Source: Novosphingobium sp. Fuku2-ISO-50 (GTDB lineage: Bacteria; Pseudomonadota; Alphaproteobacteria; Sphingomonadales; Sphingomonadaceae). From it: a DNA stretch of 64,000 nt. Of this stretch, positions 10,969 through 21,704 are shown piece by piece. The notes under the pieces were generated by a model. That model searched no databases and was not told the origin of the DNA. It saw only the letters and a list, made by a program, of their open reading frames with translations. How positions within the stretch are numbered: the stretch's first letter is position 1; every line of letters starts with the position of its first letter. The stretch lies in assembly GCF_001519055.1 (NCBI RefSeq), contig NZ_KQ954287.1:248001-312000 (forward strand). Reading direction: 5' to 3'. A program made the position numbers and the translations under genes.

Positions 10969-11907
10969 TCAATCGTCGCCGAAAATGCCCACCTCGCGCA
11001 TACCCGTGCTGTCGGCGCGGCCGCGGAACATGCCCGGCGTGGTGAAGGCCAGCGCGGTGTCGCCCGATGGGGTGACCACGATCACCCCGCCGACGCCGCC
11101 CATCGCGCCGATCTCGGCCAGCACGGCGCGCGCCGCCTGATCCGCCGTTTCGCCCGACAGCCGCATGCGCGCGCAGATTTCGTGCGCGGCGCCCGCGCGG
11201 ATGAACTGTTCGCCCGAGCCGGTGCAGCTGACCGCGCCCGCCCGGTCATCGGCATAAGTCCCCGCGCCGATCAGCGGCGAATCGCCGATCCGGCCCCAGC
11301 GCTTGCCGGTCAGCCCCCCGGTCGACGTCGCCGCCGCGACATGGCCCGCCGCATCGCGCGCGACCGCGCCGACCGTGCCGTATTTCATGCCCGCATCGAA
11401 CCAGCCTAGCGCCTTTGCCTTCAATTCCTCAAGCTGGCGCCAGCGTTCGGGCGTGGCAAACCAGTCTGGATCGACTTGTTCGACATGGTGATCGCGCGCG
11501 AATTCCTCGGCCCCCGCGCCCGACAGGAACACATGCGGCCCCGCCTCCATCACCGTGCGCGCCAGCCGCACCGGGTTTTTGGTATGGGTAATCCCCGCCA
11601 CCGCCCCGGCGGCGCGCGTTTCGCCGGTCATGATCGCGGCATCGAGCTCGTTGGTGCCGTGATAGGTAAACACCGCGCCGCGCCCGGCGTTGAAATGGGG
11701 ATCATCCTCCAGCACGGCGACCGCCGCCGTCACCGCGTCGAGCGCGCTGCCCCCATCGGCCAGAACCGCGCGCCCGGCGTCGAGCGCGGCGGCAAGCCCG
11801 GCCTCATGCGCGGCGACGGCGGCCAGGTCCATCGCATCGCGGGTCATCGATCCGGCGCCGCCATGAATGGCGATCGACCAGGCGGGATAAGACGTTGCAT
11901 CGGTCAT
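10969..11907 (-). CDS. iaaA: Isoaspartyl peptidase / type 2 L-asparaginase
   Basis: A 312-residue Ntn-hydrolase that removes isoaspartyl residues from dipeptides and hydrolyses asparagine. It contains the N-terminal IHGGAG, the NAGRGAVFT segment, and GTVGAVA in which the threonine at about residue 178 becomes the nucleophile after autocleavage into two chains. TSTGGLTGKRWGRIGDSP forms the substrate pocket. Start chosen at ATG 11907, which gives the family N-terminus; the longer frame runs into the divergent GNAT gene. The gene converges on the RDD gene with only four bases between the stops. It is not part of the adjacent ATP-grasp operon. Confidence 0.92.
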   Translation of the reverse strand: MTDATSYPAWSIAIHGGAGSMTRDAMDLAAVAAHEAGLAAALDAGRAVLADGGSALDAVTAAVAVLEDDPHFNAGRGAVFTYHGTNELDAAIMTGETRAAGAVAGITHTKNPVRLARTVMEAGPHVFLSGAGAEEFARDHHVEQVDPDWFATPERWRQLEELKAKALGWFDAGMKYGTVGAVARDAAGHVAAATSTGGLTGKRWGRIGDSPLIGAGTYADDRAGAVSCTGSGEQFIRAGAAHEICARMRLSGETADQAARAVLAEIGAMGGVGGVIVVTPSGDTALAFTTPGMFRGRADSTGMREVGIFGDD

Positions 11908-11924
11908 GCCCCATCCGATAGCAG

Positions 11925-11937
11925 ACTGGTCACCAGT
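11925..11937. promoter_or_regulatory. Small palindrome in the iaaA/GNAT divergent promoter
   Basis: ACTGGT-C-ACCAGT, a 13-bp perfect inverted repeat in the 46-bp gap between the two divergent starts. Possible operator; no further support. Confidence 0.3.
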
Positions 11938-11953
11938 TTCCAGCGGAGCGGCC

Positions 11954-12430
11954 ATGGCAGACATACGTATTGTCGAAGACGACCTGACGGGCGAGGCGAT
12001 CCGCGCGCTCGTGGCCTTGCATCTGGCCGCGATGCACGAGCACAGCCCGCCCGACAAAGTCCACGCGCTGCCCATCGCGGCGCTGCGGGCGAGCGATGTG
12101 ACATTCTATTCGGCGTGGATTGCCGACGATCTGGCCGGAATGGGCGCGATCCGCCGCCTTGCCGACGATCATGGCGAGATCAAATCGATGCGCGTCGCCC
12201 CGGCCTTTCTGGGCCGGGGCATGGGCGAGGCGATCTTGCGCCACTTGCTCGGCGTGGCGCGGGCACGGGGCTATGCGCGGGTCAGCCTCGAAACCGGGCG
12301 CACCGGGGCGTTTGGCCCGGCGGTCGCGCTCTATCGCAAATATGGCTTCGTCGAATGCCCGGCCTTTGCCGACTATGTCCTCGACGGGTTCAGCCAATGC
12401 ATGACGCTGGCTCTGGCACCCGCAGCCTGA
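11954..12430 (+). CDS. GNAT-family N-acetyltransferase
   Basis: A 158-residue acetyl-CoA-dependent acetyltransferase. The acetyl-CoA binding motif is SMRVAPAFLGRGMGEAILRH (R/Q-x-x-G-x-G/A type), followed by SLETGR and ALYRKYGFVE, as in PA4866/RimI-like small GNATs. The ATG at 11954 has GGAG nine bases upstream and avoids the iaaA promoter region. The acceptor substrate is unknown. Its 3' end overlaps the end of the convergent ATP-grasp gene by 41 bases. Confidence 0.88.
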   Translation: MADIRIVEDDLTGEAIRALVALHLAAMHEHSPPDKVHALPIAALRASDVTFYSAWIADDLAGMGAIRRLADDHGEIKSMRVAPAFLGRGMGEAILRHLLGVARARGYARVSLETGRTGAFGPAVALYRKYGFVECPAFADYVLDGFSQCMTLALAPAA

Positions 12431-13664
12431 CGTGCGCTGCGGCGACGAGCCGCTCGGCCAAAGCCTCGATTTCGGCGCGGTCGGAACCGGCAGTCATGAC
12501 CATCGCCAGCCGGTCGGCATTATCGAGCGCCGGGCGCACCGGATCGCCGCGATGGGCATTGGCAACCACGCCGACGAGCGCCGGATCGGTGCAGGGCGGC
12601 CAGTCGATCCCTGCCAGCACGCCTTGTTCCGGCGCGATCAGCCAGCGCGTGGCGGCATGGCGCAGTGTCCTGGCCGCCGGGGGCAGTCCGCCCGTCAGAT
12701 GCAGCCGGATCAGATCGCCATGGACCGAGCGGCCCAGCGCCGCCCCGATCAGCCGTGCGATGCGCGCGCCGACGAGACGCGGATTGATTTCGACCAGTTG
12801 CGGCCCGTCCTGCGTCATCACGCATTCGACATGCGCCGCGCCATCATCGAACCCGACCGCGTCGAGCAGACGCGCGAGCCATGTATCGAGCGCGGCAAAC
12901 TGCCCGCAATGCGCGGTAAAACACCCGCCGAGTATGGCAAACGACGGCGGCGCGGCCATGATCTTTTCATTGACGCCCAGCAGCACCTGACGCCCCCCCG
13001 CGCGCATCACGTCGCAGCCGAGCACCGGCCCGTCAAACAGCCGCTCGACCAGCAAAGCGCCGCGCGCGGCCATGCCGAGGCCATAGTCGCCCGGCCCTTG
13101 CGCCACGAGATCGGCCAATTGCCGCAAGATTCCCAGATCCGCCACAGTGCGCAAGGCAAAGACATGCTGCGAGCCAAAGCCGTCGACCGGCTTGACGATC
13201 GCCGGCAGGCCGACCCGCGCCACCGCGTCGATCAGCCGCGCGCCCGCACCGGGGCCCGCCTCGACCAGCGCATGGGGCGGCTGCGCAATCCCCGCCTCGG
13301 CCAAGCGTGCGCGCACAGCCGCCTTGTCGCGACACAGCGCCGCCGTTTCGGGCGAGATATGGCGCAGGCCAAGCGCCCGCGCCGCGCGCGCGCTTTCGAC
13401 AAGGCGCAAATCCTGCAGGCACACAATCGCATCGAACGGATTGGCCCGATGCGCAGCGGCCAGCGGCCCGTCCCACCCGGCGCCATCGGCAGGCATCGCC
13501 AGCACCGCCTCGGCCCGGTCGAGCAAAGGAGCAAGCTCTGGCTGCCCCCGGTAATGCGCCGGATCGGCGCTCGCGAGCGTAAACCGATGGCCGAGCGCGA
13601 GCGCCGCCTGCAACACGTCGCTGTCATTGCCGCCAGGCAAGTCGATGACCAGCAGGTGGCTCAT
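12390..13664 (-). CDS. ATP-grasp ligase of the peptide-modification-like operon
   Basis: A 424-residue ATP-grasp enzyme, last gene of the WD40/FMN-reductase/SUMF1 operon. The N-terminal domain (to about 100) is followed by the ATP-binding part (AIVKPVDGFGSQHVF, about 145-160) and the Mg-binding loop near residue 290 (QLVEINPRLVGARI). This arrangement resembles L-amino-acid ligases of the BacD/carboxylate-amine ligase group rather than RimK. It should activate a carboxylate as acyl-phosphate and join it to an amine, but the partners are unknown. Its start overlaps the SUMF1 stop (ATGA), so it is translationally coupled. An upstream in-frame extension lies in the SUMF1 gene. Confidence 0.82.
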   Translation of the reverse strand: MSHLLVIDLPGGNDSDVLQAALALGHRFTLASADPAHYRGQPELAPLLDRAEAVLAMPADGAGWDGPLAAAHRANPFDAIVCLQDLRLVESARAARALGLRHISPETAALCRDKAAVRARLAEAGIAQPPHALVEAGPGAGARLIDAVARVGLPAIVKPVDGFGSQHVFALRTVADLGILRQLADLVAQGPGDYGLGMAARGALLVERLFDGPVLGCDVMRAGGRQVLLGVNEKIMAAPPSFAILGGCFTAHCGQFAALDTWLARLLDAVGFDDGAAHVECVMTQDGPQLVEINPRLVGARIARLIGAALGRSVHGDLIRLHLTGGLPPAARTLRHAATRWLIAPEQGVLAGIDWPPCTDPALVGVVANAHRGDPVRPALDNADRLAMVMTAGSDRAEIEALAERLVAAAHVRLRVPEPASCIG

Positions 13665-14683
13665 GCCACGCTCTCGGCCAACCGAAAGCCCATCGCATAA
13701 GCCGCCGAGCGCGGATTGTGCCCATGGCGGCGGCGAGTCCGCGCCAGATCGCCAAAGCGCGAGAAACATCCGCCGCGCGCGACGCGATAGCGGCCGTGGA
13801 TCTGCGCCAGATGATCGTCGATCAGACTGCCGCCCGGCCAGGGCATATAGTCATCGGCAACATATTCCTCGACATTGCCGCCCATGTCGCAAAGGCCAAA
13901 CGGCGATTCCCCGCCAAGGAACACCCCTACCGGCGTGGTATCGAGCAGCCCGCATTCGGCCGTGTTGCACAGCGCGGGATCGAATGTATCGCCCCACGGA
14001 TAGTCCAGCCCCTGCGGCCCGGCGGCGGCGTGTTCCCATTCGGTCTCGGTCGGCAGGCGAAAGGCGCGCCCGGTCTGCCCTGCCAGCCAGGCCGCATAGG
14101 CTTCGGCGGCCAAAGGCGACACGGTATGGACCGGATGATTCGCCCGCTCGGCCGGATAGCGCCGAAAGGCCCAGCTTCCGGGCAATTCGGCAAAACCGGT
14201 GGCGAGCAGAAAGGCGCCGTATTCGGCATTGGTGACCGGATAGCGCGCCAGCCGATAGGGTTTGAGCATGACCCAATGGCGCGGCACTTCCTTGGCGATC
14301 CAGCTTTCGACGATGCCCAGATGCGCCAATCGCGTGACCACGGCATCGATCTGATCGGGATCGAGCCCGATCGGCACGCGCCCGCCGGGAATGGTGATCA
14401 TCTCCGGGTTCAGCGGATCGATGCGCGGATCGCCCGCCAGCGCCAGCAGATTGCCCGCCGCGATGCGAAACGGCAGCCCCGCGCGTGCATCGCCGATAAT
14501 GCCCAGCAGCGCCGCCACCGTTCCCTGGCGCAAATCGGCGGTAGCCTCGATCACTTCGCGCTGCAGGTCGGTCATCACGAAGCGGTCGGGCAGGCCCAAT
14601 CGTTCGCGATCGGTCATCGTGCCCGCCGCGCAGTCGCGCGGATCGAGCCGGGGGATATGCCAGCGCAAAGGTTGGGCGGTCAT
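13661..14683 (-). CDS. SUMF1/formylglycine-enzyme-fold protein
   Basis: A 340-residue protein: an N-terminal helical part (about 1-105) followed by a SUMF1 (FGE/EgtB-type) domain. Visible signatures are FRLPTETEWEHAAAG, YPWGD, LCDMGGNVEEYVADD and YRVARGGCFSRFGDLARTRR before the terminal GFRL. In true aerobic FGE a pair of copper-binding cysteines follows the RGGS segment; here that stretch reads RGGC-F-S-R-F and the pair is absent. No HX3HXE DinB-type iron site is visible in the N-terminal part either, so it is neither a standard FGE nor a standard EgtB. It overlaps both neighbours by ATGA, indicating a shared pathway. Catalytic role not predictable; a structural or binding role is also possible. 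Confidence 0.82.
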   Translation of the reverse strand: MTAQPLRWHIPRLDPRDCAAGTMTDRERLGLPDRFVMTDLQREVIEATADLRQGTVAALLGIIGDARAGLPFRIAAGNLLALAGDPRIDPLNPEMITIPGGRVPIGLDPDQIDAVVTRLAHLGIVESWIAKEVPRHWVMLKPYRLARYPVTNAEYGAFLLATGFAELPGSWAFRRYPAERANHPVHTVSPLAAEAYAAWLAGQTGRAFRLPTETEWEHAAAGPQGLDYPWGDTFDPALCNTAECGLLDTTPVGVFLGGESPFGLCDMGGNVEEYVADDYMPWPGGSLIDDHLAQIHGRYRVARGGCFSRFGDLARTRRRHGHNPRSAAYAMGFRLAESVA

Positions 14684-15261
14684 GGTCGCGGGCCTTTCAG
14701 GCAAAGCACCAATGCGGCAAAACGGGCCACGCAATCGCGCCACCAGATACCGGCAAAGGCGGGATCGAGCGTGCCGTCGGGCGCAATCGCGCGATCGCCA
14801 TAGGGAAGGGTGATGGCCTCGCCGAACACGACCGCGCCGCAATAGCCAAACAGTGCGCGCAAGGCGGGAATGCCGACCGCGCCGCCGCTCCATCCCGGAG
14901 ACGTCGCGGCCAGCAGCACGGGTTTGTCGGCAAAGGCCCCGGCCAGCGCCGGATCACGGTAAGGCAGGCGCGAGACCCAATCGACGAGGTTTTTCAGAAA
15001 CGGCGTCATCAGCCCGTTATATTCCGGGCTCGCCACGATCAGCGCGTCAGCGGCCAGAAACCGGGCATGAAGCGCGCGCACGCGGGCGACCACTGCCGGA
15101 TCATCCTCGCGATCGGCGTCAAACAGCGGCAGATCGACCTCCGCCGGGCGCAACCGGTCCGCCACGACGCCCGCCGGCAAGGCTGCGGCCAGCGCATCGA
15201 GCAGCCGCGCATTGAGCGATGCGGCGCGCTGACTGCCGCAGACGAGCAGGATGCGGGTCAT
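14680..15261 (-). CDS. NAD(P)H-dependent FMN reductase-like flavoprotein
   Basis: A 193-residue flavodoxin-fold protein of the NADPH-dependent FMN reductase/chromate reductase family. It begins MTRILLVCGSQRAASLN, whose GSxRxxS-type loop binds FMN phosphate, and has SPEYNGLMTPFLKNLVDW, the typical second FMN-binding segment, at about residues 80-100. It could supply reduced flavin or electrons to the SUMF1-fold protein. ATG 15261 overlaps the WD40 stop (ATGA) and the gene end overlaps the SUMF1 start in the same way. Confidence 0.85.
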   Translation of the reverse strand: MTRILLVCGSQRAASLNARLLDALAAALPAGVVADRLRPAEVDLPLFDADREDDPAVVARVRALHARFLAADALIVASPEYNGLMTPFLKNLVDWVSRLPYRDPALAGAFADKPVLLAATSPGWSGGAVGIPALRALFGYCGAVVFGEAITLPYGDRAIAPDGTLDPAFAGIWWRDCVARFAALVLCLKGPRP

Positions 15262-17039
15262 GCCGCCAGCCCAACCGCAAACTTTGCAGCATCGGCCACC
15301 GGCAATGCCACGATATGGAGCGCCCCGGCATAGTCGGCGGCGACGAACGCTCCTGCGCGGGCCGACCAGCACAGCGCGGCGATCCCGGCCTTGCTGATCC
15401 GCTGCATGGGCGCAAAGCTGTTGTCGGCGCGATCGAAGATGACCACGGTGCCGCCATAGCTGCCCGATGCGATCCACCGCCCGCAAGGACTTGCCGCCAG
15501 CGCCTTGACCGAATTGGGATGGGGCGTGGCAAAGGCATGATCGCCGCCGCCCAGCCCGCCCCCCAGCCCGCCGGGCAGCCACAGCCGCAAGACCCGGTCG
15601 CGCCCGACGCTGGCAAAACCGCCGTCTCCCAGCGCCACACCGGCATTGGCAATGCGCGTGTGCGCGCGTTCGACGCGGCGCCGTTCGGTCAGGGTCTCGG
15701 TATCGTGCCAGGCCAGCGTGCCATTGGCGCAGACCGAAAACAGGCGATCATAGCCTTGGCAAAGCGCCTTGACCGCATTGCCGTGGGCCGCGATTATCTT
15801 GACCAGCTGCACTGTGGCGGCCAGCGCAAAGACCAGAATTTCGCCGGTATAAGTCCCGACAGCAAGATGCGGCACACCACCGCGCGCAAACGACGCGGCG
15901 CAATTGAGCGGCGCATGATGGCGGTGCAGGATCTGGCCGCTTTCGCCATCGTACAGTTCACCCAGATGTCCGCCCGCAAACAGCCGCCCGGCCGCCGGAG
16001 CCACAAAATTGCACAGACTGCCAAGATCGGCCCCTGCCACGCCCTCGGTCAGCACCACACCGGCATCGCCGATGGCAACCAGCGCCCCATAGCGCTCGGT
16101 CACGGCATTGAGCGCCGGGCCCGCCGCAACGCCGGTGCAATCCCATGCCTCGCGTGCCGGATCAAACAGCGCATAAGTGCCGCCGAACGTGCCGACCGCA
16201 ATGCGCCCATCGGGCAGAACCGCCGCCGCGCGCGCCCAGATGGCGGCGGGCATGGCGTTCATCGCCACCAGCCTCGGCGCGCCGTGGCTCATGTCCCACA
16301 CGCCGAGCGCACGGTCATAGCCGAGCGTGACCAGCCTTGTCCCGTCGCGCGACAGCACCAGTTTCTTGATCCCCGCGCGGTGCGCCGGGGTGAATTCGGG
16401 AATCGATCCGGCGCCCGTCAACACCGCGATACGGCCGCGATCATCGCCTGCGACAATCGTCCCGTCGGGCGCAATGGCAACGCAGTCGGTGCGCATGCCG
16501 ATCTCGATCACGCGGCGGCAAACGCCGGTCGCGGCGTGCCATTCGCGCAAAGTGCCGTCGACACTGGTGGTGACAAACCGCGCGCCATCGAGCCAGGCCA
16601 GCGACAGGACATTGCCGGTATGCCCGGCCATGGCATGGATCAGCCGCCCGTCACGCGCATAGACGCGCACGATGCGATCGAGCGCGCATGTCGCGATCAG
16701 CCGGTCGTCGGGGGAAAAGCGCGCCATGTCGACATCATCGCCATGCCCCGCCAGCACGACCGACAGCCGCAAATCGGGCAATGACCAGATCCGCGCGGTA
16801 TAATCGCTGCTCGCCGAGACCAGCCAGCGCCCGTCGTGGCTGAAATCGCAGGCATTGACGAGATGATCATGATCGACCCGCGCCAGCGCAACGCGCCCCA
16901 CCCCATCCGACCCAGCTCCATTCGACCCTGCTCCATTCAACAGGGCCGCATCCCACAGGATCAGGCGATTGTCATAGCCCGCCGTCGCCACCCACGATCC
17001 ATGGGCGGCAACCCCGGCAATCGGGCCGATATGATGCAT
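15258..17039 (-). CDS. WD40-repeat protein of the peptide-modification-like operon
   Basis: A 593-residue protein made almost entirely of WD40-like blades; repeating endings such as LILWD, ARIWS, REWHA, LGVWD, ALFDP, VVIFD are spaced about 40 residues apart, giving roughly 13-14 blades, i.e. two seven-bladed propellers. There is no signal peptide or membrane helix. WD40 propellers are protein- or peptide-binding platforms, so it may hold the small peptide encoded upstream and present it to the enzymes downstream. Start chosen at ATG 17039 (MHHIGPIAG); the extension to 17105 adds unrelated residues. Glycine-rich linkers (GGLGGGLGGG) separate some blades. Confidence 0.85.
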   Translation of the reverse strand: MHHIGPIAGVAAHGSWVATAGYDNRLILWDAALLNGAGSNGAGSDGVGRVALARVDHDHLVNACDFSHDGRWLVSASSDYTARIWSLPDLRLSVVLAGHGDDVDMARFSPDDRLIATCALDRIVRVYARDGRLIHAMAGHTGNVLSLAWLDGARFVTTSVDGTLREWHAATGVCRRVIEIGMRTDCVAIAPDGTIVAGDDRGRIAVLTGAGSIPEFTPAHRAGIKKLVLSRDGTRLVTLGYDRALGVWDMSHGAPRLVAMNAMPAAIWARAAAVLPDGRIAVGTFGGTYALFDPAREAWDCTGVAAGPALNAVTERYGALVAIGDAGVVLTEGVAGADLGSLCNFVAPAAGRLFAGGHLGELYDGESGQILHRHHAPLNCAASFARGGVPHLAVGTYTGEILVFALAATVQLVKIIAAHGNAVKALCQGYDRLFSVCANGTLAWHDTETLTERRRVERAHTRIANAGVALGDGGFASVGRDRVLRLWLPGGLGGGLGGGDHAFATPHPNSVKALAASPCGRWIASGSYGGTVVIFDRADNSFAPMQRISKAGIAALCWSARAGAFVAADYAGALHIVALPVADAAKFAVGLAA

Positions 17040-17135
17040 GAAATGTCCTTTTGCGCCGACTGTCGACGCCGACAGGATGGGACCGCCATGGTTAACCCAC
17101 CGCACGCGCGGCCATCAGGGAAACCCCGTGAGAAG

Positions 17136-17175
17136 AGGGCCGGAAACGCGCACGGGGGGCGTGTTTTCCGGCCCT
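17136..17175 (-). terminator. Strong stem-loop between the peptide gene and the WD40 gene
   Basis: AGGGCCGGAAA pairs perfectly with TTTCCGGCCCT around an 18-base centre that can partly pair further. It lies between a short, probably abundant peptide transcript and the downstream enzyme genes. There is no T-run after it on the minus strand, so it may act as a partial terminator or a 3' stabilising structure rather than a full stop. Confidence 0.6.
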
Positions 17176-17186
17176 GCAACCACCGA

Positions 17187-17387
17187 TCAGGCCATGATGC
17201 TGACCGTGCTGCCCGTGGCAAGCGACTGCATGTCGGCCTGGATCTGCTGACTGGCAGCGCCCTGGGCTGCGGCAGCCGCAGCGGCCGGAGCGGGGGTGGC
17301 CGATGCCGACGACGCGGCGCTGGCGGCCTGTTGTTGCCAGGCGGCCTGGGCGGCGCCCGACGAGGCGCCTCCTACACGCATACCCAT
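17187..17387 (-). CDS. Small Ala/Ser/Gln-rich peptide, candidate precursor of a modified peptide
   Basis: A 66-residue peptide starting MGMRVGGASSG and ending GSTVSIMA. 24 residues are alanine; there is no cysteine or lysine, one arginine (position 4), one tryptophan (17), and a run of seven alanines in the middle. Three ATG codons stand in tandem after CAGGAG; the third (17387) has the best spacing, seven bases, and is chosen. No signal peptide or homology is recognised. Its place just upstream of a WD40/FMN-reductase/SUMF1/ATP-grasp operon, with a stem-loop in between, is what is expected of a ribosomally made peptide and its maturation genes. That function is inferred. The reading frame is supported by the SD site and by position, not by family match. 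Confidence 0.65.
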   Translation of the reverse strand: MGMRVGGASSGAAQAAWQQQAASAASSASATPAPAAAAAAAQGAASQQIQADMQSLATGSTVSIMA

Positions 17388-17451
17388 CATCATTCTCCTG
17401 CGGGAACGCGACAATGGTTCCCTGCTCGAGAACGGCAGTCGTTGCCTTCTC

Positions 17452-18852
17452 TTAAGCCCCCGCGACGCGCGCCAGAAACGCGTAGAAGCGTTCGTCGTCG
17501 CATTGCGTGACATTGAGCCGCAGGTAATCGCGCCATCCGCCCGCCGGGCTGAACACCGCGCCGGGGGCCAGGATGATCCCTTCGTCAAGCGCCGCGCGCG
17601 CCAGTTCCGCCGCGTCCTGCCCGCCCGGCAAGCGGACCCACAGCAACATGCCGCATTCGGGCACGGTCCAGGGCTCCATCCCCAGCGTGCGCAGCCGCCG
17701 CACCACCCGCGCCATGGCCCGCGCCAGCCGCGACCGCACCATGTCCATGTGATGCCGATACGATCCGTCGGTCAGCATCGCGCCAAGCAGTTCCGCCCCG
17801 AGCGGATTGCCGACATAGGTCGTGACGATGCGCAGATCGGCCAGCGGCTCGATCCAGTCGCGGCGCAGCGCAATATGGCCGCAACGCACGGCATTGGTCG
17901 CGGTCTTGGAAAAACTGCCGATGCGGATGACCCGGTCGAGCCCGTCGAACGCGGCATAGCGCGCGGCGATGGTATGCTCGAAATCGCTGAAAATGTCATC
18001 TTCGACGATCAGCATGTCGTGCGCTTCGGCCAGTTTGAGCACGCGATGCGCATGGGCCGCCGACAGCGTTGCCCCGGTCGGATTGTGAACCGCCGAATTG
18101 GTGATGTAGAGCCGGGGCCTCTCGCGCGCGACGACTTCGGCAAAAGCGGCCAGATCGGGGCCCGCCGGTGTCATCGGCACAGTGACGACGCGGGCCCGAT
18201 GCGCCCGCAACAGCGCCAGGAAATTGAAAAAACACGGATCGTCGACCAGCACGCAATCGCCCGGCTGCAACAGAAAGCGGCATACGAGATCGAGCGCATG
18301 CGTGCCGCTTTCGGTCAGCAGGATCTGCTCCGGGCTCGCCTCCACGCCTTGTTCGGCGAGGCGTCGGCCAAGCAGCGCGCGCATCGGCGCATGGCCGATC
18401 AGGCTGGGGTCGGCGGCGGGCAACGCAGCGCCCCGCGCCGCCGCGCGCAGCGCCTTGCGCATGGCATCGCCCGCCAGCCAGTCGGCAGGCATGGTTCCGG
18501 CCCCGGCGCGAATATGGCCGGGCAAATCCTCGATCGATTGGCGCAGCATCCATACCGGGTCGATGTCGCGCCGGGGCGCGGGCTCGACTTCGGCAAGATC
18601 GAGCGGGGCAAGCGGGGCCGCAACGAAGAATCCCGAACCCGGTCGCGCGCGAATGACCCCTTCGGCGGCAAGCCGATCATACGCTTCGACCACGGTCGAT
18701 TTCGAAAACCCGGTCGTTTCGGCCATCGCGCGGACCGAAGGCAATCGCGCGCCGGGCAAAAGCGCGCGCCGCTCGATCCGCCCCCGGATCAGCGCGATGA
18801 CCTGCCCCGTGCGCGTTTCGGGCAAAGCGGCAAAAGTGGAATCGGCGCTCAC
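17452..18852 (-). CDS. MocR/GntR-family regulator with aminotransferase-like domain
   Basis: A 466-residue PLP-dependent transcription regulator. Residues 10-80 form a GntR winged helix (ARLPSVRAMAETTGFSKSTV, then ARPGSGFFVA). Residues about 110-460 form a fold-type I aminotransferase domain with VHNPTG and SFSKTATNAVRCGH, whose lysine should bind PLP. The start is GTG 18852. It lies 64 bases upstream of the small peptide gene on the same strand, so it may be co-transcribed with it or autoregulate; it is divergent from urcA. MocR proteins usually control amino-acid, amine or vitamin B6 genes; the target here is not known. Confidence 0.9.
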   Translation of the reverse strand: MSADSTFAALPETRTGQVIALIRGRIERRALLPGARLPSVRAMAETTGFSKSTVVEAYDRLAAEGVIRARPGSGFFVAAPLAPLDLAEVEPAPRRDIDPVWMLRQSIEDLPGHIRAGAGTMPADWLAGDAMRKALRAAARGAALPAADPSLIGHAPMRALLGRRLAEQGVEASPEQILLTESGTHALDLVCRFLLQPGDCVLVDDPCFFNFLALLRAHRARVVTVPMTPAGPDLAAFAEVVARERPRLYITNSAVHNPTGATLSAAHAHRVLKLAEAHDMLIVEDDIFSDFEHTIAARYAAFDGLDRVIRIGSFSKTATNAVRCGHIALRRDWIEPLADLRIVTTYVGNPLGAELLGAMLTDGSYRHHMDMVRSRLARAMARVVRRLRTLGMEPWTVPECGMLLWVRLPGGQDAAELARAALDEGIILAPGAVFSPAGGWRDYLRLNVTQCDDERFYAFLARVAGA

Positions 18853-19343: not shown

Positions 19344-19393
19344 GACAGGCGGCCAAACGTTGCATTTTTGTGATGTTTGGCCGCCAGCCTGTC
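19344..19393 (+). promoter_or_regulatory. Large inverted repeat between urcA and the TonB receptor gene
   Basis: GGCGGCCAAAC (19348-19358) pairs with GTTTGGCCGCC (19375-19385), and flanking GACAGG/CCTGTC extend the stem after a two-base bulge. The loop is 16 bases. It starts nine bases after the urcA stop and ends 50 bases before the receptor start. With no following T-run it may be a terminator relying on structure, or a leader element for the receptor. Confidence 0.55.
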
Positions 19394-19442
19394 ATATGAC
19401 GCGGCTAGCCGCCCCACGGGGACCGTGTGGGAGATTACGTCA

Positions 19443-21704
19443 ATGAGGAAACTCGCCGCACTGTTGTGCACATCGATTCTGGCCACCATGACGGCTGCCC
19501 CGGCTTTTGCCGAGACAGGCGCCGCAGCGGCTGCGCCGACCGAAGTGACCACCTCCACCGGGACAGAAGGCACCGACGTCCGCCAGATCGTTGTCACCGC
19601 CGAACGCAACCGCGCGGCATCGGATGCGCCGACCAAGGCCTCGATTCTCGAGACTCAGCCGGAATCGCTGATCACGCGCAAATTTATCGAACAATCAACG
19701 CCGGAAAGCGGTGACTACACCACCACCGTGGCGATCGCCCCTTCGGTCAACAGCTTTGGCGCAAACGGCGGCGGCGTCGGCGATGTCGGCAACGCCACGA
19801 TGCGCGGCTTTCAGGATGGCCAGTTCAACATCACGTTCGACGGGATCGCCTTTGGCGATGCGAATGACACCACCCACCATCCGGCAGCCTTTTTCCCCAG
19901 CTCAACCATCGGCACATCTGTGGTCGATCGCGGCCCGGGCGCGGCGGGCGACATGGGCCAGGCCAATTTCGGCGGCGCAATCCACCTGTTTTCGCCGCAA
20001 GTGGATGACAGGTTCGGGGTGAGCCAAAAGGCGACGTACGGCAGCTTCAACACCCAGTCTTATATCACCACGGTGCAAACCGGCGCGATCAAGGAACTGG
20101 GCGGAGCCAAGCTGTTGCTGAGCGGCGATTTCCGTTCGTCCGACGGCCAGCTTCAGGGCATGGGCGGCATTGGCCGCAATTTCCTGGGCAAGCTGGTTGT
20201 GCCGATCGGCAACGATATCACGCTGACCGCGTTCAGCTCGATCAACCACATCCGCTATAACCAGACCGACAACACTTCGGGCACGATCCTGGGCTTTGGC
20301 ATCAGCGGGGCCCAGCAGGCGGCCTACGGCATGAACTTCGGGTTGAACAACGACCCCACCGACGAACATTATGTCGGCTATAACTACGTGGTCAAGAACA
20401 CCAGCTTCAACTATCTGAACCTGAAGTGGGAAGTGGGCCACGGCGTGACCGTTGAAGACCACCTGTATTACTACACATACGACAACCAGACCGTCTCGGC
20501 ACAAAGCGCAGGCGATCTGCTCAACCCGCCGACTTCGGGCGCGGGCGCAGGAACAAGCTATTATTCGCCGGACGGTGGCACGACATATACCACGGACATC
20601 GCCGGCTATCGCAAGCAGAACAAGTACGACACTTATGGCAATATTCTGCGCGTCAACGGCGATCTCGGCTTTGGCACGCTGCGCGCGGGCGGCATGTACG
20701 AACATTCGAACGCCACGCGCTTCATCGCCAATTACGATCTGACCACCAACACGCCCGATACCACCGGCACGTATGGCTCGGCCGGAACCGCTGCGCCGAC
20801 CGCCGCACTGGCCAATTATCAGTATTACGAGCCCTCGAGCTGGAACCAGTTCCAGCTGTTTGCCGATTTTGAATGGCGCCCGCTGACCAATCTGACCGTG
20901 ACGCCGGGCATCAAGCAGTTGCATTACGTCCGCAGCGTGGACAACGCGCTGGAAACCGGCTCGACGCCCAGCGGCGCCCCTGCTTTTATCGCCAACGGCA
21001 GCCGCACTTATAACAAGACGATGTGGTTCATCACCGCCAACTACCGGGTCCAGCCCAACTGGTCGTTCTATGCCCAGGCCGCGACCGGCTTCCTCGTGCC
21101 GCCGGTCAAGACGGTGGCTGCAGTTGCCAATGGCACGGCATCGACCACCGCGCCGCAGACCACCACGACCTATCAGGTCGGATCGGTCTATACGGCGGGC
21201 AAGCTGACGGTGGATGGCGATTTCTATTACATTGACGCCAACAACGTGCTCATCCCCAACAAGCACAGCGGCTGCTTCTGCTATCTCAACACCGGCAAGG
21301 GCCGCTATTATGGCTGGGAAGCGCAAGGCGCCTACCACCTGGGCTATGGCTTTACCGCCTTTGCCAACGGCTCGATCAACATCGCCCGCGATATCGGCGA
21401 TCAGATCGATTACCAGAACGCCCCCAAGCGCACCGCCGCGTTCGGCCTGATCTATGACGATCACAAGCTGCAGGCGAGCGTGTCGGACAAGATCATCGGC
21501 CCGCAATTGGCCAGCGATCAACTGACCTGGCTCAACTCCTATTCCACGATCGACGCCTCGGTGTCGTATGACCTTGGCCGGGTAAAGCTGAAGCTGGCCG
21601 GCTTCAACCTTTCCGACAAACGCCCCCCGATCGACTTCGATGGGGTTTACACCGTCTATCAGGTTGGTCGCCAGATTCAGGCCACGATACAGGTCAAGTA
21701 CTGA
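19443..21704 (+). CDS. TonB-dependent outer-membrane receptor 1
   Basis: A 753-residue receptor with signal peptide (cut near AFA-ETG, residue 21), a TonB-box-like IVVTAERN, a plug domain to about residue 160 and a 22-strand-type barrel ending in QATIQVKY with terminal aromatic. It imports a scarce ligand with energy from TonB-ExbBD. One extracellular loop carries a Cys pair (HSGCFCYLN). The start at 19443 gives a proper signal sequence; upstream extension runs into the stem-loop. Ligand unknown; no Fur box or cobalamin riboswitch recognised. Confidence 0.92.
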   Translation: MRKLAALLCTSILATMTAAPAFAETGAAAAAPTEVTTSTGTEGTDVRQIVVTAERNRAASDAPTKASILETQPESLITRKFIEQSTPESGDYTTTVAIAPSVNSFGANGGGVGDVGNATMRGFQDGQFNITFDGIAFGDANDTTHHPAAFFPSSTIGTSVVDRGPGAAGDMGQANFGGAIHLFSPQVDDRFGVSQKATYGSFNTQSYITTVQTGAIKELGGAKLLLSGDFRSSDGQLQGMGGIGRNFLGKLVVPIGNDITLTAFSSINHIRYNQTDNTSGTILGFGISGAQQAAYGMNFGLNNDPTDEHYVGYNYVVKNTSFNYLNLKWEVGHGVTVEDHLYYYTYDNQTVSAQSAGDLLNPPTSGAGAGTSYYSPDGGTTYTTDIAGYRKQNKYDTYGNILRVNGDLGFGTLRAGGMYEHSNATRFIANYDLTTNTPDTTGTYGSAGTAAPTAALANYQYYEPSSWNQFQLFADFEWRPLTNLTVTPGIKQLHYVRSVDNALETGSTPSGAPAFIANGSRTYNKTMWFITANYRVQPNWSFYAQAATGFLVPPVKTVAAVANGTASTTAPQTTTTYQVGSVYTAGKLTVDGDFYYIDANNVLIPNKHSGCFCYLNTGKGRYYGWEAQGAYHLGYGFTAFANGSINIARDIGDQIDYQNAPKRTAAFGLIYDDHKLQASVSDKIIGPQLASDQLTWLNSYSTIDASVSYDLGRVKLKLAGFNLSDKRPPIDFDGVYTVYQVGRQIQATIQVKY

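Follow-up and report, generated by a model that had tools for sequence, protein, structure and literature searches.

The window analysed here is a stretch of 64,000 nucleotides from Novosphingobium sp. Fuku2-ISO-50 (contig NZ_KQ954287.1, positions 248,001 to 312,000), whose minus strand carries an operon of five genes in the order peptide, WD40 propeller, NADPH-dependent flavin mononucleotide (FMN) reductase, SUMF1-fold protein and ATP-grasp ligase (Table 1). The initial annotation had described a 66-residue peptide gene followed on the same strand by enzyme genes joined by ATGA overlaps, and this layout was confirmed: neighbouring enzyme genes share a 4-base ATGA at each of their three junctions, while the peptide gene itself is set apart, with 147 bases between its stop codon and the WD40 start. 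The four enzyme assignments were likewise matched by Pfam. The gap behind the peptide gene contains a hairpin, and folding of the 70 bases 3' of the peptide stop gave a minimum free energy of -33.4 kcal/mol (z -2.6). Of the 13 peptide loci folded, nine have a hairpin with z <= -2.5 behind the stop codon, L062, L096, L098 and L099 falling short of this value. Possibly the hairpin is a leaky terminator or a processing site; the arrangement would allow an excess of peptide over enzymes, though it is not proof of one. Such an excess is common in operons for ribosomally synthesized and post-translationally modified peptides (RiPPs). A defence system was also considered and rejected, as the sole PADLOC match was that of the WD40 protein to HEAT-ARM_XIII (E 1e-18), the remaining four genes giving no match.

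Table 1. Features of the operon and its surroundings (positions in the window; minus-strand features are given from high to low).
Feature	Position	Strand	Description
Peptide gene	17387-17187	minus	66 aa; start is the third ATG of ATGATGATGGGT, preceded by AGGAG; proposed precursor
WD40 propeller gene	17039-15258	minus	593 aa, ToxC/PsdE-like; Pfam WD40 1.9e-36
NADPH-dependent FMN reductase gene	15261-14680	minus	193 aa; PF03358 FMN_red 6.9e-32
SUMF1-fold gene	14683-13661	minus	340 aa, ToxD-like; Pfam FGE-sulfatase (PF03781) 1e-40
ATP-grasp ligase gene	13664-12390	minus	424 aa; ATP-grasp_4 PF13535 5e-13, LAL_C2 PF18603 1e-13
Inverted repeat/hairpin	17174-17137	minus	stem GGGCCGGAAA/TTTCCGGCCC, between peptide stop and WD40
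MocR-type regulator gene	18852-17452	minus	Pfam GntR + aminotransferase; operon link doubtful
TonB-dependent receptor gene	19377-21704	plus	PF00593/PF07715; possible uptake partner, weak link

The peptide, in the window copy of the type MGMRVGG...LATGSTVSIMA, found no match in Pfam, NCBIfam or PADLOC families. Thirteen peptides of 58-68 residues, namely the window copy and 12 further ones, were read and aligned. Their N-terminus is MGMR[VI] in ten cases and MS[MI]QIG in three (L099-L101), position 2 being Gly or Ser in all, and the C-terminus is conserved in 13/13 as G[ST][TSN][FV][SN]xx[AV]; the middle varies in length and is rich in Ala, Ser, Gln and Pro. Cysteine is absent from all 13 peptides, and no conserved Asp or Glu was found in their alignment. 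Nucleotide changes among the copies lie mostly at third codon positions, and NG86 estimates for eight peptide pairs gave a dN of 0.02-0.34 and a dS of 0.14-1.5, the dN/dS ratio being about 0.16-0.34. Purifying selection acts on the peptide, whose two ends are conserved and whose middle varies, and the 12 further copies, the third-position changes and the dN/dS ratio together show that the open reading frame (ORF) encoding it did not arise by chance. The three peptides of the second class (L099:7208-7387, L100:7714-7866 and L101:7590-7742; MS[MI]QIG...ATGSTFSIMA) combine the same C-terminal motif with the other N-terminus, and in L100 and L101 their genes come after TonB receptor and MFS genes. 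The peptide genes of L096, L100 and L101 are preceded by receptor or transporter genes and are not succeeded by any same-strand enzyme gene.

Conservation of the peptide, on which the earlier interpretation depended, is also evident from its distribution, since it is kept between species and tracks the ligase. In a sample of 195 genomes of the genus, a profile built from five copies of the peptide matched 17 places in 14 genomes at E<=0.01, nine genomes doing so at E<=5e-14; weak matches in G212, G297, G286 and G347 (E 7e-4 to 0.01; three with an internal stop) were dropped from the counts. The ATP-grasp enzyme was detected at E<=1e-30 in nine of the 195 genomes (G000, G234, G251, G263, G339, G340, G359, G362 and G363), and these are the identical nine that hold the strong peptide matches. 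The probability of such a full overlap by chance is 1e-15 if genomes are assumed to be independent, a figure that serves as a rough guide only because the genomes are related. Seven of the nine also possess the SUMF1 family, and the WD40 protein occurs in the same seven (11 genomes examined for WD40). The ATP-grasp gene of G359 (L098) and of G339 (L097) has the peptide gene immediately upstream, and these two genomes hold neither a WD40 protein (E<=1e-30) nor a SUMF1 protein of this operon's family (E<=1e-20); L097 stops inside the ATP-grasp gene, so that the genes beyond are unseen. Weak, partial SUMF1 matches (36-41%; E 3e-27 in G214, 2e-22 in G310) were not counted.

Six loci with the four enzyme genes were readable (the window and L059-L063, the last gene of L062 being cut at the contig end), and WD40 precedes SUMF1 in all six. 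In five of them the peptide lies directly upstream of WD40, as had been expected of a short ORF belonging to the set, and in the sixth (G263) it is found ~6.8 kb away. Counting all loci, the peptide is directly upstream of WD40 in six (the window, L059, L061, L062, L063 and L102), and a short ORF precedes the enzymes in eight; L065 consists of SUMF1 alone. A second copy of the operon is present on G363:C414 (L064), where the ATP-grasp match has an internal stop. Beyond the genus, no peptide was found in the 198 other genomes of the family sample (which also held the genus members G000, G111 and G172), and in the order sample of 201 genomes the profile gave, besides G000, two marginal matches (E 0.0045 with an internal stop, and E 0.0075) that were taken as noise. 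Full-length members of the SUMF1 family were detected in only G000 and G417 among 385 genomes of the class, 15 further class genomes giving partial matches (1e-41 to 1e-46) taken as ordinary FGE-like proteins, and in G000, G417 and G935 among 398 genomes of the phylum at E<=1e-70. Within a set of 24 SUMF1 loci on genome contigs only L028 and L029 belong to the operon family, and their contigs are identical with those of G363 and G340.

The gene set is embedded in several differing neighbourhoods, so that the link between peptide and ATP-grasp ligase is not simply inherited synteny. A MocR/UrcA neighbourhood is shared by the window and L059; an AMP-binding enzyme plus FecR or TonB-receptor genes surround L060/L096, L061 and L063; a thioredoxin-DUF4266-DUF3570-ApbE cassette lies near L062 (and, by similarity, L103); and a type III polyketide synthase lies near L098 (and, by similarity, L102). 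The AMP-binding enzyme is fused to an iron-containing haem-oxygenase-like domain (PF14518) in L061:9857-11974 and L063:3489-5750, and in the homologue of L096/L060 only the AMP-binding domain was detected. It had been suggested that the MocR regulator could control the operon. This role now appears weak, since L059 is the sole other compared locus with a MocR gene (83% identical) beside the operon. TonB receptors occur near many of the loci, and in L060 a receptor 80% identical to that of the window follows the operon, but as the genome has 78 plug domains in 4.42 Mb such proximity is only suggestive. Between the operon of L060 and this receptor, directly after ATP-grasp and on the same strand, lies a PCMT-type (isoaspartyl) methyltransferase gene (L060:9389-10201), which we count in favour of a peptide-modifying pathway. 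An isoaspartyl peptidase/asparaginase gene (window 10969-11955) adjoins the operon and is also found beside L058, L059, L065 and L098; neither this gene nor the GNAT genes were counted as parts of the set, because they also flank L065, which is without ATP-grasp.

Comparison with known structures assigned the SUMF1-fold protein to a specific family. A phmmer search of the PDB yielded 7spq ('Serine/threonine kinase ToxD'), aligned to residues 22-338 of 340 with E 2e-105, the next-best match being CalU17 at 2e-22, followed by OvsA, EgtB and FGE. The protein is 47-56% identical to those of eight toxoflavin-type loci, and the polar residues invariant among ToxD-like rows are kept in the genus proteins. 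The AlphaFold model of this protein was poor (pLDDT 60.2) and was not used. An FGE/EgtB-type enzyme with cysteine or C-S chemistry, as initially proposed, was rejected: the protein is a ToxD, no column of the 15 ToxD-like rows (L065 left out) holds an invariant Cys, for which reason FGE-type cysteine chemistry is not expected, and, the 13 peptides being free of Cys as well, cysteine or C-S chemistry is unlikely. C18 and C244 are present in 8/8 genus rows, and one of seven toxoflavin-type rows has a Cys at either place (244).

Likewise, the WD40 protein resembles ToxC, which we take to be the WD-repeat protein of the toxoflavin cluster. Its identity to homologues in seven toxoflavin-type loci is 39-43% over about 585 aa (L109 43%) and 25% in L054 and L055, and 116 columns are invariant over 11 rows. 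Homologues of the FMN reductase, 27-32% identical, are present in 2/9 toxoflavin-type loci. In phylogenetic trees the nine genus SUMF1 rows grouped on the same side of a branch (94/99, slightly under the tool's star), as did the six genus WD40 rows (99/98, starred); the former tree takes in L065, the second copy in G263, a lone and shortened SUMF1, and the positions of L054 and L055 in the latter are unsure because their branches are very long. That the genus proteins form their own branch is consistent with a changed substrate. Judged by homology, the WD40 and SUMF1 proteins are the pair of the toxoflavin (tox) and pseudoiodinine (psd) clusters, where their role is assigned to triazine (N-N bond) formation. 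In PMC5851621, too, the ToxD from a toxoflavin cluster is entered as a serine/threonine kinase. According to PMC9911603, pseudoiodinine production in Pseudomonas mosselii requires psdC (sulphatase-modifying factor) and psdE, the product of which is named a WD-40 protein, and mutants of either gene are rescued by 1,6-didesmethyltoxoflavin; therefore, both act at or before triazine formation. Its authors propose that PsdE and/or PsdC couple a pyrimidine to glycine and create the N-N bond, and another study notes that ToxC has been proposed as a new oxidase family that aids toxoflavin N-N bond formation (PMC12154649).

Outside the genus, nine loci with the WD40 + SUMF1 pair were examined (L052-L057, L104, L106 and L109), eight of them distinct as L056 and L057 are near-copies. 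In plasmid records, the ten best matches to SUMF1 are 47-55% identical and span no less than 84% of the query. The plasmid WD40 search (E<=1e-20) gave 11 records, two of which are distant cyanobacterial proteins; of the remaining nine, eight carry one of these ten SUMF1 matches, and in the last, from Streptomyces BB1-1-1 (L109), the SUMF1 match next to WD40 is split into two pieces. When tblastn was run with two RibA queries, a GTP cyclohydrolase II homologue was detected in 9/9 toxoflavin-type loci, and in neither the window nor any of 16 fetched genus stretches (among which L060 and L096 overlap, and not all of which contain the operon); three PF00925 (GTP cyclohydrolase II) matches lie on other contigs of the genome, and the genus genomes likewise have their GTP cyclohydrolase II genes away from the operon. 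RibD is present in 4/8 toxoflavin-type loci (L052, L053, L104 and L106) and weak in L109, and gave no match at E<=1e-3 in the 16 stretches or the window. A toxA-like methyltransferase query produced in the genus stretches only matches of 26-27%, in L061 and L063. Azospirillum (L052) and G935 (L106) show the order LysR - methyltransferase - SUMF1 - RibA - WD40 - RibD together with a resistance-nodulation-division (RND) efflux gene set, which is the content reported for toxoflavin clusters in PMC6337347 and PMC5851621. A hidden Markov model (HMM) of the peptide, run in six frames against eight of these loci, gave a best E of 0.46. Three Streptomyces loci (L053, L054 and L109) have a small ORF of 76-102 codons ahead of WD40, and these ORFs are unrelated to the peptide or to one another (best peptide-HMM score 3.0 bits). 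The one in L054 (6964-7254), on a Streptomyces plasmid just upstream of beta-propeller, RibA and SUMF1 genes, encodes a secreted-looking protein of 97 aa with about five tandem 15-residue repeats of the DIGWPVAPSGTVSA type and has relatives in 17 plasmid records; it was not counted as linked because only its own record occurs in the compared WD40/SUMF1 lists. The Gram-positive L055 (Halobacillus litoralis plasmid pLDW-31) carries WD40, SUMF1 and GTP cyclohydrolase II together with an FMN reductase and a pyridoxal phosphate (PLP) enzyme, with a DUF692 protein and a second WD40 nearby.

The predicted model of the ATP-grasp protein (pLDDT 89.9) superimposed best on 3vot, an L-amino acid ligase (Z 36.9, root-mean-square deviation 2.7, 377 aligned residues, 21% identity), and the L-amino acid ligase folds (Z 36.9 to 30.9, 18-21% identical) were matched along its entire length. 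Its best NCBIfam models, NF002563 (argininosuccinate lyase, N-terminal part), NF005543 and dapdiamide synthase, all stayed below their cut-offs, as did the RimK family at 1e-6. The modelled fold supports an enzyme that would activate a carboxylate and join it to an amine, and gives no indication of which substrates these would be.

With modest confidence, we interpret the operon as a RiPP-like pathway in which the ATP-grasp enzyme acts on the peptide and the recruited ToxC/ToxD pair adds an oxidative step. Going beyond homology, gene order, co-occurrence and selection on the peptide, as observed above, we infer the modification of the peptide, the order of the steps and the bonds formed as follows. 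The peptide would be the substrate, recognized through its N-terminus MGMRVGG or its C-terminal motif, and the hairpin would allow it to be made in excess. At one end of the peptide the ligase would create an amide or ester bond and, because the peptides lack a conserved acidic side chain, the likely acyl donor would be either the carboxylate of the C-terminus or a small free acid. Next, with electrons passed on by the FMN reductase, ToxC and ToxD would oxidize the peptide or the attached group, in analogy to the triazine/N-N step in toxoflavin synthesis. A more specific form of this proposal, namely that the pair, linked until now to nucleotide-derived 7-azapteridines, has been moved onto a ribosomal peptide and builds an N-N bond or triazine-like ring on it or on a ligase-attached residue, which would make this a RiPP class with N-N chemistry, is rather doubtful.

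Several points weigh against the RiPP-like interpretation. The peptide of G263, besides its distance of ~6.8 kb from WD40, lies on the opposite strand. The class-2 peptides (L099-L101) have no adjacent ATP-grasp gene, and G389 has a class-2 peptide and no ATP-grasp of the operon family at E<=1e-30; thus, the C-terminal motif, which all of these carry, is not tied to the ligase. Small molecules are the known or proposed substrates of ToxC/ToxD, and L-amino acid ligases link free amino acids to each other. Neither a protease nor an exporter was found among the five genes by Pfam.

The main rival, possible although we rate it rather improbable, is a small-molecule pathway in which ToxC/ToxD would act on a riboflavin-pathway intermediate supplied by housekeeping RibA/RibD and the ATP-grasp enzyme would couple an amino acid, the peptide being a separate small protein for immunity, carriage or regulation. 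It agrees with the role of the WD40/SUMF1 pair given in PMC9911603, with the retention of the polar residues invariant in ToxD-like rows, with a ligase fold that is that of free amino acid ligases and with the weak methyltransferase matches near the operon in L061 and L063. Housekeeping supply can work, as deletion of psdG, the RibD gene of the psd cluster, lowers pseudoiodinine only in part (PMC9911603), and the genome holds three GTP cyclohydrolase II matches elsewhere. However, GTP cyclohydrolase II and RibD are missing from all 16 genus stretches and the window, two genomes retain the peptide and ATP-grasp without WD40 and SUMF1 of the operon family, and the gene that tracks the ligase is the peptide.

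Alternatively, the peptide might serve as a carrier, the ATP-grasp enzyme adding an amino acid to its end and ToxC/ToxD processing the tethered residue before a small molecule is released. Peptide-templated pathways of the pearlin type release a small molecule in this way. A C-terminus conserved in every peptide, a flexible Ala/Ser/Gln/Pro-rich middle and the L-amino acid ligase fold would suit such a function, as would glycine, the proposed co-substrate of the pair in pseudoiodinine formation (PMC9911603). Yet Pfam revealed neither an aminoacyl-tRNA-dependent ligase nor a releasing protease among the five genes, and tethering is hypothetical; we consider a carrier role unlikely. Least probable by far is an attenuator, in which the short ORF and hairpin would regulate the downstream enzymes and the peptide sequence would be absent from the product: the hairpins in nine of the loci and the short ORF before the enzymes in eight fit it, but a peptide of 58-68 aa with both ends conserved and a low dN/dS does not, nor do the peptides of L096, L100 and L101 that lack a same-strand enzyme gene after them.

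The RiPP-like interpretation shares features with several known systems. A precursor-like peptide gene beside an ATP-grasp gene is reminiscent of graspetides, the ATP-grasp RiPPs, whose core pairs acidic side chains with Ser, Thr or Lys; the present ligase perhaps departs from these, matching LAL_C2 and ATP-grasp_4 and reaching the RimK family only at 1e-6, and the peptides, unlike such a core, have no conserved acidic residue. L-amino acid ligases (BL00235, 3vot; BacD/YwfE, 3vmm/3wnz; RizA, 4wd3) share the whole-chain fold and the Pfam domain LAL_C2, whereas identity is only 18-21% and the ligase here is linked to a peptide gene. A precedent for an enzyme of this kind acting on a ribosomal peptide is PGM1 of pheganomycin biosynthesis. 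FGE, EgtB, OvsA, PvdO and CalU17 have in common with the SUMF1 protein the domain PF03781, but the best match among them is far behind that of ToxD (2e-22 versus 2e-105), and the cysteine pair of the FGE active site has no equivalent, as no Cys is invariant in the 15 ToxD-like rows. The tox and psd clusters are similar in their ToxD-type SUMF1 protein, in a WD40 partner of one family and, in two of nine loci, in an FMN reductase homologue; they differ in that the genus operons are without GTP cyclohydrolase II or RibD and carry instead the conserved peptide and the L-amino-acid-ligase-type ATP-grasp.

The initial annotation had regarded the combination of genes as unrecognized, which holds in part: the WD40 + SUMF1 pair is known from toxoflavin and pseudoiodinine clusters, but the full set with peptide and ligase was not found described. 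Among the literature matches listed, a scope outside which most subscription papers fall, no description of this gene set, or of these enzymes in any RiPP pathway, was found. The comparison suggests a RiPP-like set that has borrowed the ToxC/ToxD pair. Triazine formation by ToxC/ToxD is itself still at the stage of a proposal in PMC9911603 and PMC12154649. If the interpretation is true, a gene-encoded peptide and a ligase working with ToxC/ToxD would amount to a programmable substrate for triazine/N-N chemistry, and the operon would add an enzyme set that, as far as the literature matches listed show, is new to RiPP pathways.

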